A stretch of 64,000 nt of DNA from an uncultured Acetatifactor sp. (GTDB lineage: Bacteria > Bacillota > Clostridia > Lachnospirales > Lachnospiraceae). Made by a program: the position numbers and the translations under genes. The notes beneath the pieces were generated by a model, which ran no database searches, had not been told where the DNA came from, and saw nothing but the letters and a program-made list of their open reading frames with translations. The stretch spans positions 62,001 through 126,000 of the forward strand of contig CANQOL010000001.1 of NCBI GenBank assembly GCA_947625475.1. The letters run 5' to 3'. Positions 6,655 through 40,463 of this stretch are shown piece after piece (positions within the stretch are counted from its first letter, which is position 1; the number at the start of each line of letters is the position of its first letter).

Positions 6655-7671
6655 TCATATCTTCCAATTCATAATCAATTTAAAGTCAACAATCTTGGAC
6701 TGACGGAATGCTTGATGTATACTGTCCACATCCCGCACCTCAACCTCTTCAGAAATAAGCATCTTCATCCGATCCGCCATTTTTTTATCATGCTCTAGGA
6801 TATATACTGCCTGTTCAAAATCTTCTCTTGTAGAACGACTCCTTCCTATCAATGTCAGCCCCTTTTCTAAAACCATTCTGGTAAGAATCGGCACAGGTTC
6901 CTCACTGACTCCCAATAGCATGATAATTCCCTCTGGCAAAATGGTATCAATAATCTGTGAAATTGCTTTTTGGGATGCCTGTCCTCCAACACATTCAAAT
7001 ACATCATCAAAAATATTTTGACTTGTGACCTCATCCGCTGTAAGGCATTCGTCTGCAAACCGAAACATGGCTAGCTTGGAACGGTTTACTCCAATACAGG
7101 TCAAATACGCCTCAGGGAAAAAATATTTGAGCAGGCAGCTAACAGCATATCCAAGTGCTCCGTCTCCCCAGACAGCAATCCGCTTGGGTTGATGCTTTAC
7201 TTGTTTTTGATAGGTTGATACTGCATGCACTCCCACGCTTATAAATTCCGTAATTGCCGCCAAATTATCGTCTATCTTCTGATACTGGATAATTTGAGAG
7301 GCCGGAAGGTTTAACATCTCCTGCATAAACCCATCTGCACGGCTCGAACGAAATCTGGAATCCAACCTGTAGTTCTCACTATACTGAGTGCCCTTGCCTG
7401 GAATATTTGGCAGCAGAATAACCTTATCTCCAGTCCTAAAAACATCGTTCTTATCGTACAGGACTGTACCGCATGCCTCATGAATCAATGCCAGTGGCAG
7501 TCTTTGCTTTAATACTTTAGCATCCCGCATTCCAAAATAATAACGCATATCTGCCTTACAGATAGACAAGGCTTTTGGCCGAACAAGAATCTGTCCGCTG
7601 TTTATATCTAAATTTTCAAAATTCGTTTCAATAACCATCGGAGACGTCAGCCTATACTGCGTGTTGATCAT
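6655..7671 (-). CDS. tarJ: alcohol dehydrogenase, ribulose-5-phosphate reductase (TarJ-like)
   Basis: A 338-residue medium-chain dehydrogenase with a catalytic zinc cysteine (SICKADMRYYFG), the HEACG zinc/proton-relay motif and a Rossmann segment near WGDGALGYAV. Overall it matches TarJ/Bcs1-type ribitol-5-phosphate dehydrogenases, which reduce ribulose-5-phosphate to ribitol-5-phosphate with NADPH. The assignment is strengthened by the tarI-like gene immediately upstream, overlapping by 20 bp, since TarI and TarJ work as a pair to make CDP-ribitol. It is followed by a 180-bp AT-rich gap before the WavE-like gene. Confidence 0.82.
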   Translation of the reverse strand: MINTQYRLTSPMVIETNFENLDINSGQILVRPKALSICKADMRYYFGMRDAKVLKQRLPLALIHEACGTVLYDKNDVFRTGDKVILLPNIPGKGTQYSENYRLDSRFRSSRADGFMQEMLNLPASQIIQYQKIDDNLAAITEFISVGVHAVSTYQKQVKHQPKRIAVWGDGALGYAVSCLLKYFFPEAYLTCIGVNRSKLAMFRFADECLTADEVTSQNIFDDVFECVGGQASQKAISQIIDTILPEGIIMLLGVSEEPVPILTRMVLEKGLTLIGRSRSTREDFEQAVYILEHDKKMADRMKMLISEEVEVRDVDSIHQAFRQSKIVDFKLIMNWKI

Positions 7672-13828: not shown

Positions 13829-14818
13829 TTAGTAAATATCCGGCTTTAGGCCCACGTATATCACAGCTGATCCCTGCCGCTCCAGGCTCATAGGCATCTG
13901 TACCAGATTCAGGGAGGATCTCACCTCTCCCTGATACTTTTCCGGGACATAGAACAACAGGAATCCTCCTCCTCCGGCTCCCAGGAGCTTTCCGCCGATT
14001 GCACCGTGCCTTCGCGCCATCTCATAATACTCGTCGATCATTGGGTTTGTAATCCCATTTGCCAATGTGCGTTTCAATCTCCAGCTCTCATGCAGGATTT
14101 CCCCCATGGCATCAATATTATTTTGCTGAAGCTCATCCCGCAGTTCTCTCGCCAGGCTGCACAGCCCCTTTTGATTCTGCTCCTTTTCCCCGCCTGTAAT
14201 ATTTGCGCTTTGCTCCTTCAAAATCTCACTGGCAGAATGCAGCTTCCCCGTGTAAAATATCATCAGATTTTTCGCAAGCTGTTCATGCAGCCCATTTTTC
14301 ATAATAATCGGCTCTACAAATACGCTGCCGTCCGGGTTAAATTCATAAAAGTTTAACCCGCCGTATGCTGCGGCGTACTGATCCTGTTTCCCGATGGGAT
14401 TTTTCAGCCTTTCTATTTCAATTTCACAGGCTTTCTGAGCCAGCTTTTCCTTTGATACAAATTTTCCTTTGTAGCTGTACAGAGCATGCAGCAGTCCCAC
14501 TGTAAAGGAGCTGGAGGATCCGAGCCCTGTCCCCGCCGGCACGTCCGCCGTGCTCACAATCTCCACTCCGTGGATCCGGAGCATACTCAATACTTCCTTA
14601 AAATACTTGTGGTTGATTTTTTCAATATTGTCCACAATCTCTGTCTGGGAATACTTCAGCACTGTGTCTCCCGCTTCGAAGCTGGGATGCACGGAGACAT
14701 ACATATATTTATTGATGGTTGTACTTAATACACATCCTCCGTGTTTCTCATAAAAGGAAGGTATGTCGCTGCCGCCTCCCGCGAAGCTGACCCGGAACGG
14801 GGTTCTTGTTATAATCAT
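13829..14818 (-). CDS. hddA: D-glycero-D-manno-heptose-7-phosphate kinase HddA
   Basis: A GHMP kinase of 329 residues: TRTPFRVSFAGGGSDIP is the N-terminal family signature, PAGTGLGSSSSFTVG the ATP-binding motif 2, and GGKLLGAGGGGFLLFY motif 3. HddA phosphorylates heptose-7-phosphate at C1 with alpha configuration, giving the 1,7-bisphosphate used for GDP-heptose. Its ATG overlaps the stop of the recombinase-like gene (ATGA), and the ribosome site GGGAGGCAAGAG lies inside that gene, so the two are translationally coupled. Confidence 0.93.
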   Translation of the reverse strand: MIITRTPFRVSFAGGGSDIPSFYEKHGGCVLSTTINKYMYVSVHPSFEAGDTVLKYSQTEIVDNIEKINHKYFKEVLSMLRIHGVEIVSTADVPAGTGLGSSSSFTVGLLHALYSYKGKFVSKEKLAQKACEIEIERLKNPIGKQDQYAAAYGGLNFYEFNPDGSVFVEPIIMKNGLHEQLAKNLMIFYTGKLHSASEILKEQSANITGGEKEQNQKGLCSLARELRDELQQNNIDAMGEILHESWRLKRTLANGITNPMIDEYYEMARRHGAIGGKLLGAGGGGFLLFYVPEKYQGEVRSSLNLVQMPMSLERQGSAVIYVGLKPDIY

Positions 14819-15705
14819 CTCTTGCCTCCCTGCTCACTTCCTCGGCAGTATTCCAAAGACATAGCCAAGCTTGCATTCCCCAAGATCCGCGACAGGGCGG
14901 CCGCATCCATCCCCTGCCTGGCGCATCCTTCGATAAAGGTTCCTCTCAGGCAGCTGAAACTTATATTGGGCAGGCCCAGCTCCCTGGCCAGCGCCTTCAG
15001 GCGGTTCTGCATAGTCCTGGGATCCGCCGGCTGTCCGGTTCCCGTAAGGAAAAACATACCCTGTCCTGCCGCGAACCTGCCAATCACCCCTGCCGCAGAT
15101 TCCGTCAGGGGGATCCGTCTGCGGGCCGCCCCGCTTTTAATCTCTGTCAACACCAGCGCAGTCCCGCCATCCACCGGGATCCGCTGCAGGGTTTCCGCAA
15201 CTCTGATCTGAGCCTGCTCCAGATCAATATCCTTCCACCGCAGCGCACACAGCTCCCCCAGGCGCATCCCGGTCGTCAATACCAGATAAATCCCCGCTTT
15301 TGTCAAATCCGTCCCGTCAAGCAGCCCCCCGCGGAGTATCTCTTCTTCCTTTTCCGTCAGGGAACCGCCCTTGAGCCGCAGACTCTCTTTCCGCTTGGGG
15401 AAAATAATGCTGTCCGCCGGGTTTGCCAGGCAATATCTCCGGGAAGCATACCGCGTCACCATCCTAAGCACCACCAAAATGTCCTCCGTGTACTTTTTGC
15501 TGTACCCCTTCCCCGGAAGCTCCTCCGCAAATCTCCTGGCAGCGGCAGGCGTAATCTCCCCATAAGGCACGCCCGCAAAATAAGGAATTACATGCTTTTC
15601 CAGCTTGTACCGATAATTGGAAACGGAGGATACCTTCAGGCTGCCGGAAGACTCTTCCATCCACTCTCTGGCAATCTCCTCAAAGCTCTTGTCTGCCCCG
15701 TCCAT
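14815..15705 (-). CDS. degenerate tyrosine recombinase-like protein, first gene of the glycan operon
   Basis: A 296-residue integrase-family protein. A SAM-like core-binding domain covers about residues 8-110, then a catalytic-type domain. The first arginine (TGMRLGELCALRW), the beta-hairpin lysine (EIKSGAARRR), the second arginine and the tyrosine (LEYCRG) are present. Box II reads SCLRG instead of H-x-x-R-H, and the LGH motif reads LGN, so all three histidines are lost. It also lacks the arm-type N-terminal domain of its divergent neighbour. It may bind DNA or cleave weakly and act as a regulator. It is coupled to hddA by a 4-bp overlap. Confidence 0.85.
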   Translation of the reverse strand: MDGADKSFEEIAREWMEESSGSLKVSSVSNYRYKLEKHVIPYFAGVPYGEITPAAARRFAEELPGKGYSKKYTEDILVVLRMVTRYASRRYCLANPADSIIFPKRKESLRLKGGSLTEKEEEILRGGLLDGTDLTKAGIYLVLTTGMRLGELCALRWKDIDLEQAQIRVAETLQRIPVDGGTALVLTEIKSGAARRRIPLTESAAGVIGRFAAGQGMFFLTGTGQPADPRTMQNRLKALARELGLPNISFSCLRGTFIEGCARQGMDAAALSRILGNASLAMSLEYCRGSEQGGKR

Positions 15706-15821
15706 GTTATCCCTCCCTCCTTATCCTGCGCCTGATAAACGGATATACTAAAGATAGTTTCGGATATGTCCTGCTGTCTTTCGTTTAATAACAATTTTAC
15801 GAAATCCTTTTGAACAGTGAC

Positions 15822-15850
15822 AGTATACCATTATCAAACTCAAATTGCAA
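15822..15850 (-). promoter_or_regulatory. promoter of the polysaccharide operon
   Basis: On the minus strand there is TTGCAA (15845-15850), a 17-bp spacer and TATACT (15822-15827), giving a start near 15815 and a leader of about 110 nt to the recombinase-like gene. It is the only good promoter seen between this gap and the left edge, so it may drive all of the operon in view. Confidence 0.7.
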
Positions 15851-15867
15851 TATCCAAAAACAATTTG
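15841..15867. repeat. inverted repeat overlapping the operon -35 box
   Basis: CAAATTG (15841-15847) and CAATTTG (15861-15867) form perfect 7-bp arms around a 13-bp centre. The left arm overlaps the -35 box. It could be a recombinase core site or an operator. A second, 6-bp pair TTTCGT/ACGAAA lies at 15779-15784 and 15799-15804, downstream of the start point. Confidence 0.6.
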
Positions 15868-15896
15868 TCAAAAAGTACCGGAAAAGGAGGAAAACT

Positions 15897-16997
15897 ATGA
15901 ACATCTACAGACGCAAGGATGGACGTTACGAGGGAAGAATTACGGTGGATCGCGCCTCCGGAGGGAAAGGATATCTGTCCTTTTACGGGAAAACAGCTCA
16001 GGAGACGGAAGAGAAAATGAGCAACTATATCAGCCGGCTGAAGGAAGCTCTGCCAAGCTCATCCTTGACGGTAGAAAAACTTTTTTGCCAGTGGATCTCA
16101 GCCATTTCCATCCGTCTGAAGGAATCCAGCCTGGCTGTCTACCGGATGCGGATAGAATCCCATATTCTTCCCAGGCTGGGCCGGCTTGGCACAGATGAGC
16201 TCACGGCCCCGCTGATGCAGAAATTTATCTCGGACAAGCTGGCCGAAGGACTGACGGCAAATTATGTTTCGGACATTATCAGCACCCTGCGGTCTATGCT
16301 CCGCTTCGGCGCGCGGCAGTATGGAATCCGGGATACTTTGGAGGATATTATCCTGCCAAGGAAACGCAGGCCCCAGGTCAGACTTTTATCCAGCACTCAG
16401 CAGCTACAGCTGGGAACCCGTCTGATGCAGGATAAGAGCCTTACAGCCCTTGGGATCTCCCTGACTCTCTCCACCGGTTTAAGGCTTGGGGAGCTCTGCG
16501 CTCTTCGGTGGGAGGATATCGATCTGGAAGAGAAGACCCTGTCCGTCAATCGAATCATCCAGAGGATCCGCAATTCAAAGGGCAGTGGGACGCATCTGAC
16601 GATCACCGCGCCCAAGAGTGCTTCTTCCCAGCGGGTAATCCCACTGCCCGACTGGGCGGTGCAGCAGCTCAGCAGTCGGGAAAAGGAAGGCCGCTGCTAT
16701 CTGCTGACCGGGACGGACAAACCTATTGAGCCTCGTACCATGCAGTATCGCTTCCAATCGGTACTAAAAAAAGAAAAACTGCCGTCAGTTCATTTTCATG
16801 CGCTGCGGCATATGTTTGCCACGCGGTGTGTGGAACTGGGGCTTGACATTAAATCTTTATCGGAGATATTGGGACATTCCAGGGTGGAGATCACCTTAAA
16901 CAGCTATGTGCATTCCTCAATGGAGCGAAAAAAAGCCTTCATGCAAAGCCTGTCGCTGACGTTGCAGAATCCTGCGGGTGCAGTGTGTGTTTCGTGA
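15897..16997 (+). CDS. tyrosine recombinase/integrase, catalytic set intact
   Basis: A 366-residue integrase, started at the ATG at 15897 behind AAAAGGAGG. The first 45 residues form an arm-type DNA-binding domain (NIYRRKDGRYEGRI). A SAM-like core-binding domain follows, then the catalytic domain with arginine in TGLRLGELCALRW, lysine in APKSASSQR, HALRH, ILGHSR and the tyrosine in LNSYVHSS. All residues needed for strand exchange are therefore present. It is homologous to, and divergent from, the degenerate recombinase gene. No other phage or ICE genes are nearby, so it is more likely a locus-specific switch enzyme than a mobile-element integrase, by inference. Confidence 0.92.
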   Translation: MNIYRRKDGRYEGRITVDRASGGKGYLSFYGKTAQETEEKMSNYISRLKEALPSSSLTVEKLFCQWISAISIRLKESSLAVYRMRIESHILPRLGRLGTDELTAPLMQKFISDKLAEGLTANYVSDIISTLRSMLRFGARQYGIRDTLEDIILPRKRRPQVRLLSSTQQLQLGTRLMQDKSLTALGISLTLSTGLRLGELCALRWEDIDLEEKTLSVNRIIQRIRNSKGSGTHLTITAPKSASSQRVIPLPDWAVQQLSSREKEGRCYLLTGTDKPIEPRTMQYRFQSVLKKEKLPSVHFHALRHMFATRCVELGLDIKSLSEILGHSRVEITLNSYVHSSMERKKAFMQSLSLTLQNPAGAVCVS

Positions 16998-17031
16998 ATT
17001 TGTTATTTGGCGAATACCCCCTAAAACAGAA

Positions 17032-17058
17032 AAAGTACGCGGCGCGTACTTTCTTTTG
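17032..17058 (+). terminator. terminator of the plus-strand integrase
   Basis: AAAGTACGC and GCGTACTTT are perfect 9-bp arms around GGC, followed by CTTTTG. Confidence 0.85.
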
Positions 17059-39885: not shown

Positions 39886-39980
39886 TATAAAATTGCCATA
39901 AGTGCTTCACAAAAAATCTATTGCCAAACTCCATCTGTCTGTGGTATGGTGAATTCAGGCAAAGGATTTCAACTCAGATC

Positions 39981-40463
39981 GGAATCCTGAATTTCACTCT
40001 TTTTAAGAAGCATCCGGAATTTTTCTCCAACTATTATATGATCAATGAGAAAACCCATCAAATTTACAGTAGAAAATTTCGCCTCTGTGTGTTAGACTTA
40101 ACTCAGATACAGTTAGCCACGAAACAGGACCGGGAACACGGTCTGGACAAATGGGCTGCCCTGTTTAACGCAGCCACATGGGAGGAACTGAAGATGCTCG
40201 CCAGAGAAGATGAGAACCTGCAAAACGCTGTCTGCACCGTCGCCCGACTGACGAAGGAGGAAAAGATCCGCCTGCAGTGCGAGGCCAGAGAGGACTACTA
40301 CCGCCGCACAGCGGGACGGGAACGGCTGCTGAAGGAAACCACGGCCAAGCTGAATCAGACCACGGCTAAGTTAGACCAGACCACAGCTAAGCTGGAGCAG
40401 GCTCTTGAGCTCCTCCGGAAGCATGGCATTGACCCTTCGGAGGCATCTGGGGAGCAGCCGTAA
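39981..40463 (+). pseudogene. C-terminal remnant of an Rpn/PDDEXK nuclease-transposase-like gene
   Basis: From ILNFTLFKKHPEF onward the translation resembles the C-terminal half of Rpn-type (PD-(D/E)XK) recombination-promoting nucleases, including LDLTQIQLATKQDREHGLDKW-type sequence and a coiled-coil tail of TTAKL repeats. The catalytic N-terminal half is absent. The 60 bases before it encode unrelated residues and lack a ribosome site. The stop at 40461-40463 lies only about 10 bases from the broken end of the acetyltransferase fragment. Confidence 0.75.

Follow-up and report, generated by a model that had tools for sequence, protein, structure and literature searches.

A probable self-inverting promoter cassette, paired with a disabled recombinase paralogue, at the head of glycan operons in an uncultured Acetatifactor species

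The DNA analyzed here (the window) is a stretch of 64,000 nt from an uncultured Acetatifactor sp. (GTDB lineage Bacteria; Bacillota; Clostridia; Lachnospirales; Lachnospiraceae), corresponding to positions 62,001-126,000 on the forward strand of contig CANQOL010000001.1 in assembly GCA_947625475.1; the contig is called C1 in comparisons within its own genome. A heptose operon headed by a degenerate tyrosine recombinase gene runs on to about position 6655, and probably further, with genes for a GHMP kinase, an epimerase, a nucleotidyltransferase-HAD fusion, a SIS isomerase, a family-2 glycosyltransferase and sugar-nucleotide enzymes. An intact recombinase gene, int, lies divergently to the degenerate gene across a gap of ~190 bp. 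The features of the locus are as follows.

13829-14818, minus strand: hddA-like GHMP kinase, at which the heptose part of the operon begins; 4-bp overlap with the degenerate gene (14815/14818).
14815-15705, minus strand: degenerate recombinase paralogue, 296 aa, with SCLRG and LGN motifs; heads the operon and lies outside the cassette.
15779-15804, plus strand: recombination site 5' of int, TTTCGTTTA-ATAACAAT-TTTACGAAA; inverted match to 16990-17015.
15805-16989, no strand assigned: predicted invertible cassette, consisting of int and the outward promoter, a layout common to paralogues and relatives.
15822-15850, minus strand: predicted sigma70-type outward promoter, P_out, with -35 TTGCAA (15845-15850), a 17-bp spacer, -10 TATACT (15822-15827) and an extended TG; faces the degenerate gene and the operon.
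15897-16997, plus strand: intact tyrosine recombinase (int), 366 aa, with HALRH...LGH...Y and an N-terminal arm-binding segment.
16990-17015, minus strand: inverted partner site at the 3' end of int, covering the stop codon, TTTCGTGAA-TTTGTTAT-TTGGCGAAT; reverse complement ATTCGCCAA-ATAACAAA-TTCACGAAA.
17028-17058, no strand assigned: terminator-like hairpin on the far flank, a short distance beyond the 3' site.

A preliminary description of the locus had reported a recombinase-like protein with SCLRG for HxxRH and LGN for LGH and without the arm-binding segment, encoded by the first gene of the glycan operon, coupled to hddA and facing an intact paralogue across 190 bp; our analysis bears out each of these points. 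The int protein carries the full tyrosine recombinase catalytic set, i.e. R, K, HALRH, LGH and Y. The degenerate protein still matches the Phage_integrase and SAM-like core-binding domains and retains both arginines, the hairpin Lys and the Tyr, and its alignment begins at approximately residue 58 of the intact protein, the arm-binding N-terminal segment being missing. The nearest solved structures to both proteins are those of Tn1549-type Int (PDB 6en0, 6emz).

A search with the degenerate protein revealed nine glycan operons in the same genome that are headed by a degenerate recombinase. All nine paralogues have lost the three catalytic His positions, the first being replaced by S or N, the second by G, N, D, K or R and the third by N, and in four of them the catalytic Tyr is additionally gone; the GN motif (G276-N277) is invariant across the set. 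The four Tyr-less proteins also have Gln/Gly-rich repetitive linkers of variable length between their two domains (L055:9738-11060, L056:9603-10826, L057:11021-12154, L058:8608-9804).

The intact partner adjoins the degenerate gene at eight of the nine loci. In the window and at C6 the two genes are divergent; at C48, C50, C35, C4, C21 and C15 they are in tandem, in the order int, degenerate gene, glycan genes. At the ninth locus, C53, the degenerate gene lies at a contig end. C53 (19,234 bp; L054:19234) and C55 (18,813 bp; L095:18813) both stop exactly at ...TCCGCCATTTACGAAA, i.e. at the same base of the recombination site, and an intact recombinase for this locus was not found anywhere in the assembly. 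If both orientations were present in the sequenced DNA, an assembler would be expected to break both flanks off at this point, the repeat's inner edge, and to leave the cassette out. The int of C9 was considered as the missing partner of C53 and rejected, its sites not matching. Two further intact relatives of int in this genome, L060:257-1357 and L059:9617-10975, lack a degenerate partner, and a search around them found no inverted repeats.

The preliminary description had also stated that no invertible segment was found; this was mistaken, since int itself lies between the inverted sites 15779-15804 and 16990-17015. Its inverted repeat does exist, but is one whole recombination site (15779-15804) rather than a promoter-linked 7-bp repeat. 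Both window sites are 26 bp long, with an inverted match of 16/18 that was equalled in 0/200 shuffles. Inverted repeats around the segment, as are characteristic of invertons, flank int in 8/8 pairs of this genome. In seven of these pairs the best 18-bp inverted match around int has 16-18 identities, a level reached in 0/200 shuffles; C50 has a perfect 28-bp inverted repeat further out, farther upstream than the 250-bp search range. The seven pairs fit a site model of a 9-bp arm, an 8-bp spacer and a 9-bp arm, in which the inner arm reads TTTGCGAAA or differs little from it. The spacer is shared by the two sites of one locus, at 7 or 8 of 8 positions (7, not 8, in the window), and is distinct between loci (ATAACAA, ATCATGTT, GCCCTAT, TTTCGACA, TTACGTCA, TTTCGCCA and TTTCACCA). 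Tyrosine recombinases require matching overlaps and, given these private spacers, the loci should thus not recombine with each other. The arm on the side of the degenerate gene is TTTCGTTTA in C1, C6 and C48, which form one subclade, although int is tandem in C48 and divergent in C1 and C6; this constancy implies that the flank has stayed fixed and the cassette has turned.

With respect to transcription, the operon promoter that had been placed over the inverted repeat is better assigned to the inside of the cassette, on the minus strand, as TTGCAA-17-TATACT, and the plus-strand promoter proposed at TTGAAC/TATCAA was not picked out by the promoter scan. The P_out of the window matches the -35 consensus at only 4/6 positions, with a shuffle p of 0.05. 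Across the cassettes, an outward sigma70-like promoter, in many cases TTGACA-17-TATAAT, was found between int and the 5' site in 65/71, compared with 12 inward promoters and 6.5 expected from shuffles. By consensus match the segment thus appears to contain the outward promoter typical of invertons. Terminator-like hairpins lie on the far flank at 6/8 loci of this genome and on the near flank at 1/8. As P_out faces the degenerate gene in the window and at C6 and faces away from it in the tandem loci, the former two are predicted to be ON and the latter six OFF, these labels denoting the direction of P_out relative to the degenerate gene. The promoter of int itself was poorly defined by the scan, and so read-through from int into the operon may occur in the tandem state.

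The cassette architecture is widespread in Clostridia relatives, as judged from 80 loci, mostly of rumen and gut Oscillospiraceae and Lachnospiraceae, obtained by a public-genome scan with the degenerate alignment. Inverted repeats (>=16/18) flank 63/77 of the intact recombinases in these relatives and direct repeats 4/77, and in most cases the cassette is without a degenerate partner. Comparison of orthologous loci by blastn revealed that both orientations of the cassette occur at the same locus, as in invertons, in at least the following sets: L103/L115; L131 and L138 versus L133; L165 and L166 versus L167; and L102/L109. For L103/L115, the flanks on either side give minus-strand matches (94-96%) and the cassette a plus-strand match (94%); the two loci come from one metagenome-assembled genome and may represent two strains or two copies, the orientation differing either way. 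The blastn blocks overlap by 27 bp, approximately the length of one site, and the outer arms are swapped but the inner arms have remained attached to the cassette, implying a crossover in or next to the spacer. The genes that follow the cassettes in relatives are varied. In L106 (9824-19030), from an Oscillospiraceae MAG, a cassette predicted to be OFF precedes a BREX operon, brxA-brxB-brxC-pglX, possibly giving phase-variable phage defence. Cassettes precede LytTR response-regulator genes in L150 (9827-14052) and L154 (8179-10226), followed in L150 by a GHKL kinase and AgrB, possibly a case of phase-variable quorum sensing, and precede genes for BspA-like repeat proteins in L122 and L172 and a Wzz-type gene in L158. 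Judging by the genes that follow it, the int cassette serves as a general module, and it was seen together with a disabled partner only before glycan operons.

In a tree of 103 proteins, 14 degenerate proteins form one group with a support of 99, and seven of the partner ints of this genome cluster (support 97) with the ints of L101, L108 and L110, loci in which int likewise has a degenerate partner. Among the closer degenerate pairs dN/dS is 0.21-0.43, implying that these genes are maintained under purifying selection and are not decaying. The integrase matches in 100 congeneric genomes include no degenerate form, all having an intact catalytic set, and the same holds for the best matches listed from 397 family genomes; the degenerate clade was therefore found only in the genome of the window and in a small number of MAGs from rabbit gut that carry the label Ruminiclostridium. 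Neither an intact first gene beside mobile-element genes nor a lack of conservation of the pair was seen, and glycan genes follow the degenerate gene at 14/14 loci. The earlier proposal of a two-recombinase control device is thus strengthened by the occurrence of the pair at eight glycan loci of this genome and in other Clostridia, by the single degenerate clade and by purifying selection. The suggestion that the intact enzyme acts on DNA also stands, int lying inside a cassette that it very probably inverts.

Some genes around these loci are shared between operons. Among the matches listed, the gene directly after the degenerate recombinase is 87-93% identical at the DNA level between several loci whose downstream operons differ (L050:13188-14656, L054:16713-18187, L055:11060-12534, L056:8150-9603), which suggests module exchange or gene conversion. 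At L057:11884-13987 the last part of the degenerate gene, together with the glycan genes after it, is ~75% identical in DNA to L143:796-2896, from a MAG labelled Ruminiclostridium (among the matches listed), an identity that suggests horizontal transfer of the switch together with its operon. Also among the matches listed is a repeated gene near two glycan loci, L050:425-1405 and L052:605-1583, whose copies are 97% alike and ~81% identical to positions 39975-40339 of the window.

The reading that we favour, and consider likely, is that of a self-contained ON/OFF phase-variation switch, in which int inverts its own promoter cassette ahead of the degenerate gene and the glycan operon, with the degenerate protein most likely serving as a latch. 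The sites, the outward promoter, the two orientations at orthologous loci and the single origin and conservation of the degenerate clade are supported by the sequence comparisons. We infer flipping in this strain, promoter activity and the polarity of the switch, as well as every step in the action of the degenerate protein. Int, encoded inside a cassette of ~1.2 kb bounded by the inverted sites, would flip it by strand exchange in the spacer. In the divergent orientation (the window and C6) P_out would transcribe the degenerate recombinase gene and the glycan operon, i.e. the ON state, in which the window locus is predicted to be; in the tandem orientation (C48, C50, C35, C4, C21 and C15) it would face the far flank, often into a terminator, giving the OFF state. 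The hairpin at 17028-17058 would stop int transcripts when the window locus is ON and P_out transcripts when it is OFF. Because each locus has its own spacer, the loci would flip independently.

Being the first gene under P_out, the degenerate recombinase would be made mainly in the ON state and otherwise only by read-through from int. With its core-binding and catalytic domains kept and its catalytic histidines gone, the protein is most readily understood as one that binds the arms but does not cut, with a possible role as latch, repressor or cross-locus regulator. Most likely it would bind the arms without cutting and so damp the activity or the expression of int, latching the ON state, and it would possibly act also at other loci sharing the arms. 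The int of C50 is of a separate lineage with a different site, so the C50 degenerate protein may not share the arm specificity of its partner. As to repression in trans of the UpxZ/FljA kind, the features that would fit are the position in the operon and the assembly state of two ON to six OFF. As a tentative extension, a coat-shuffling system of Gram-positive gut bacteria is possible, if doubtful. Each genome would have many self-flipping cassettes, each with a private spacer, and disabled paralogues from an ON locus would latch that locus and keep the other loci OFF, so that glycan expression would be nearly exclusive with no need for a master invertase.

The same inverting cassette could have the opposite polarity, with read-through from the int promoter into the degenerate and glycan genes making the tandem state ON and the divergent state OFF. 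The degenerate ORF closely follows int in the tandem loci, with little sign of a terminator between the two (near flank, 1/8 loci of this genome), in line with such read-through; however, a strong outward promoter is present in 65/71 cassettes compared with 12 inward, and the terminators are mostly on the far flank, and we regard this polarity as distinctly improbable. It also seems rather unlikely that the cassette inverts while the degenerate gene has no switching role, being a retained relic, a translational leader or a transcription factor acting at unrelated sites. In the majority of relatives the cassette occurs with no degenerate partner, which is thus unnecessary for inversion, and four copies in this genome lack the Tyr and have Gln/Gly-rich linkers; both points would accord with this possibility. 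The single degenerate clade, purifying selection, the constant position between site and glycan genes in 14 loci and the grouping together of the partner ints argue for a role.

That the locus is the remnant of an integrative element of the Tn916/Tn1549 type, i.e. an integrase and its decayed copy without a switch, is very improbable, even though a Tn1549-type Int is the nearest solved structure for both proteins. The sites are inverted in 63 and direct in 4 of 77 cases, the cassette contains int and a promoter only, and orthologous loci differ by inversion. The direct att repeats and transfer or excision genes of integrative and conjugative elements do not characterize these loci, direct repeats being limited to the 4/77; transfer genes were not found in the flanks, which hold glycan and housekeeping genes. 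The Tn916/Tn1549-type integrase (PDB 6en0, 6emz) moves a conjugative transposon, whereas the enzyme studied here is encoded between inverted sites.

The self-inverting switch that we favour resembles known systems in part. The operon switched by Hin in Salmonella also encodes a regulator, FljA. As in Hin/fljBA, the segment that flips contains both the gene for the recombinase and a promoter directed outward. Hin is named as the case of a recombinase within its own segment in PMC5903667. The likeness is one of layout only: Hin is a serine recombinase with a Fis-bound enhancer, whereas here the enzyme is a tyrosine recombinase, one genome contains many cassettes, each with a private spacer, and the operon begins, unlike in Hin/fljBA, with a disabled recombinase paralogue. 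The genome of Bacteroides fragilis (Mpi/Tsr, UpxY/UpxZ) likewise contains numerous glycan operons, each of them controlled by an invertible promoter and beginning with a regulatory gene, a similarity to the loci described here. In B. fragilis, however, one master serine invertase acts in trans and the first gene encodes an antitermination factor or its inhibitor, whereas each segment here contains its own tyrosine recombinase and is followed by a recombinase paralogue. The capsule loci of that organism are treated in PMC11892184 and PMC3090145. A 2025 survey links inverton group 139 of Clostridia, with short invertible segments, to nearby tyrosine recombinases, and reports few invertons per Clostridia genome, with a median of 3 (PMC11892184). 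By its description, group 139 is perhaps a related kind, although its recombinase is reported to lie near the inverton and the example given, of ~0.26 kb, is too short for an int gene (PMC11892184). A literature search with most subscription journals outside its reach returned no matching system for this combination.

Overall, the results offer a specific and testable candidate for a switch behind the variation of surface glycans in Clostridia. The presence of nine predicted switches with disabled recombinase copies in one genome suggests that the surface coat varies from cell to cell. Since the same cassette also precedes genes for BREX, Agr quorum sensing and surface proteins, it may be a module for bet hedging in general. 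A disabled paralogue encoded in the operon that the recombinase itself switches would represent a new form of recombinase control.
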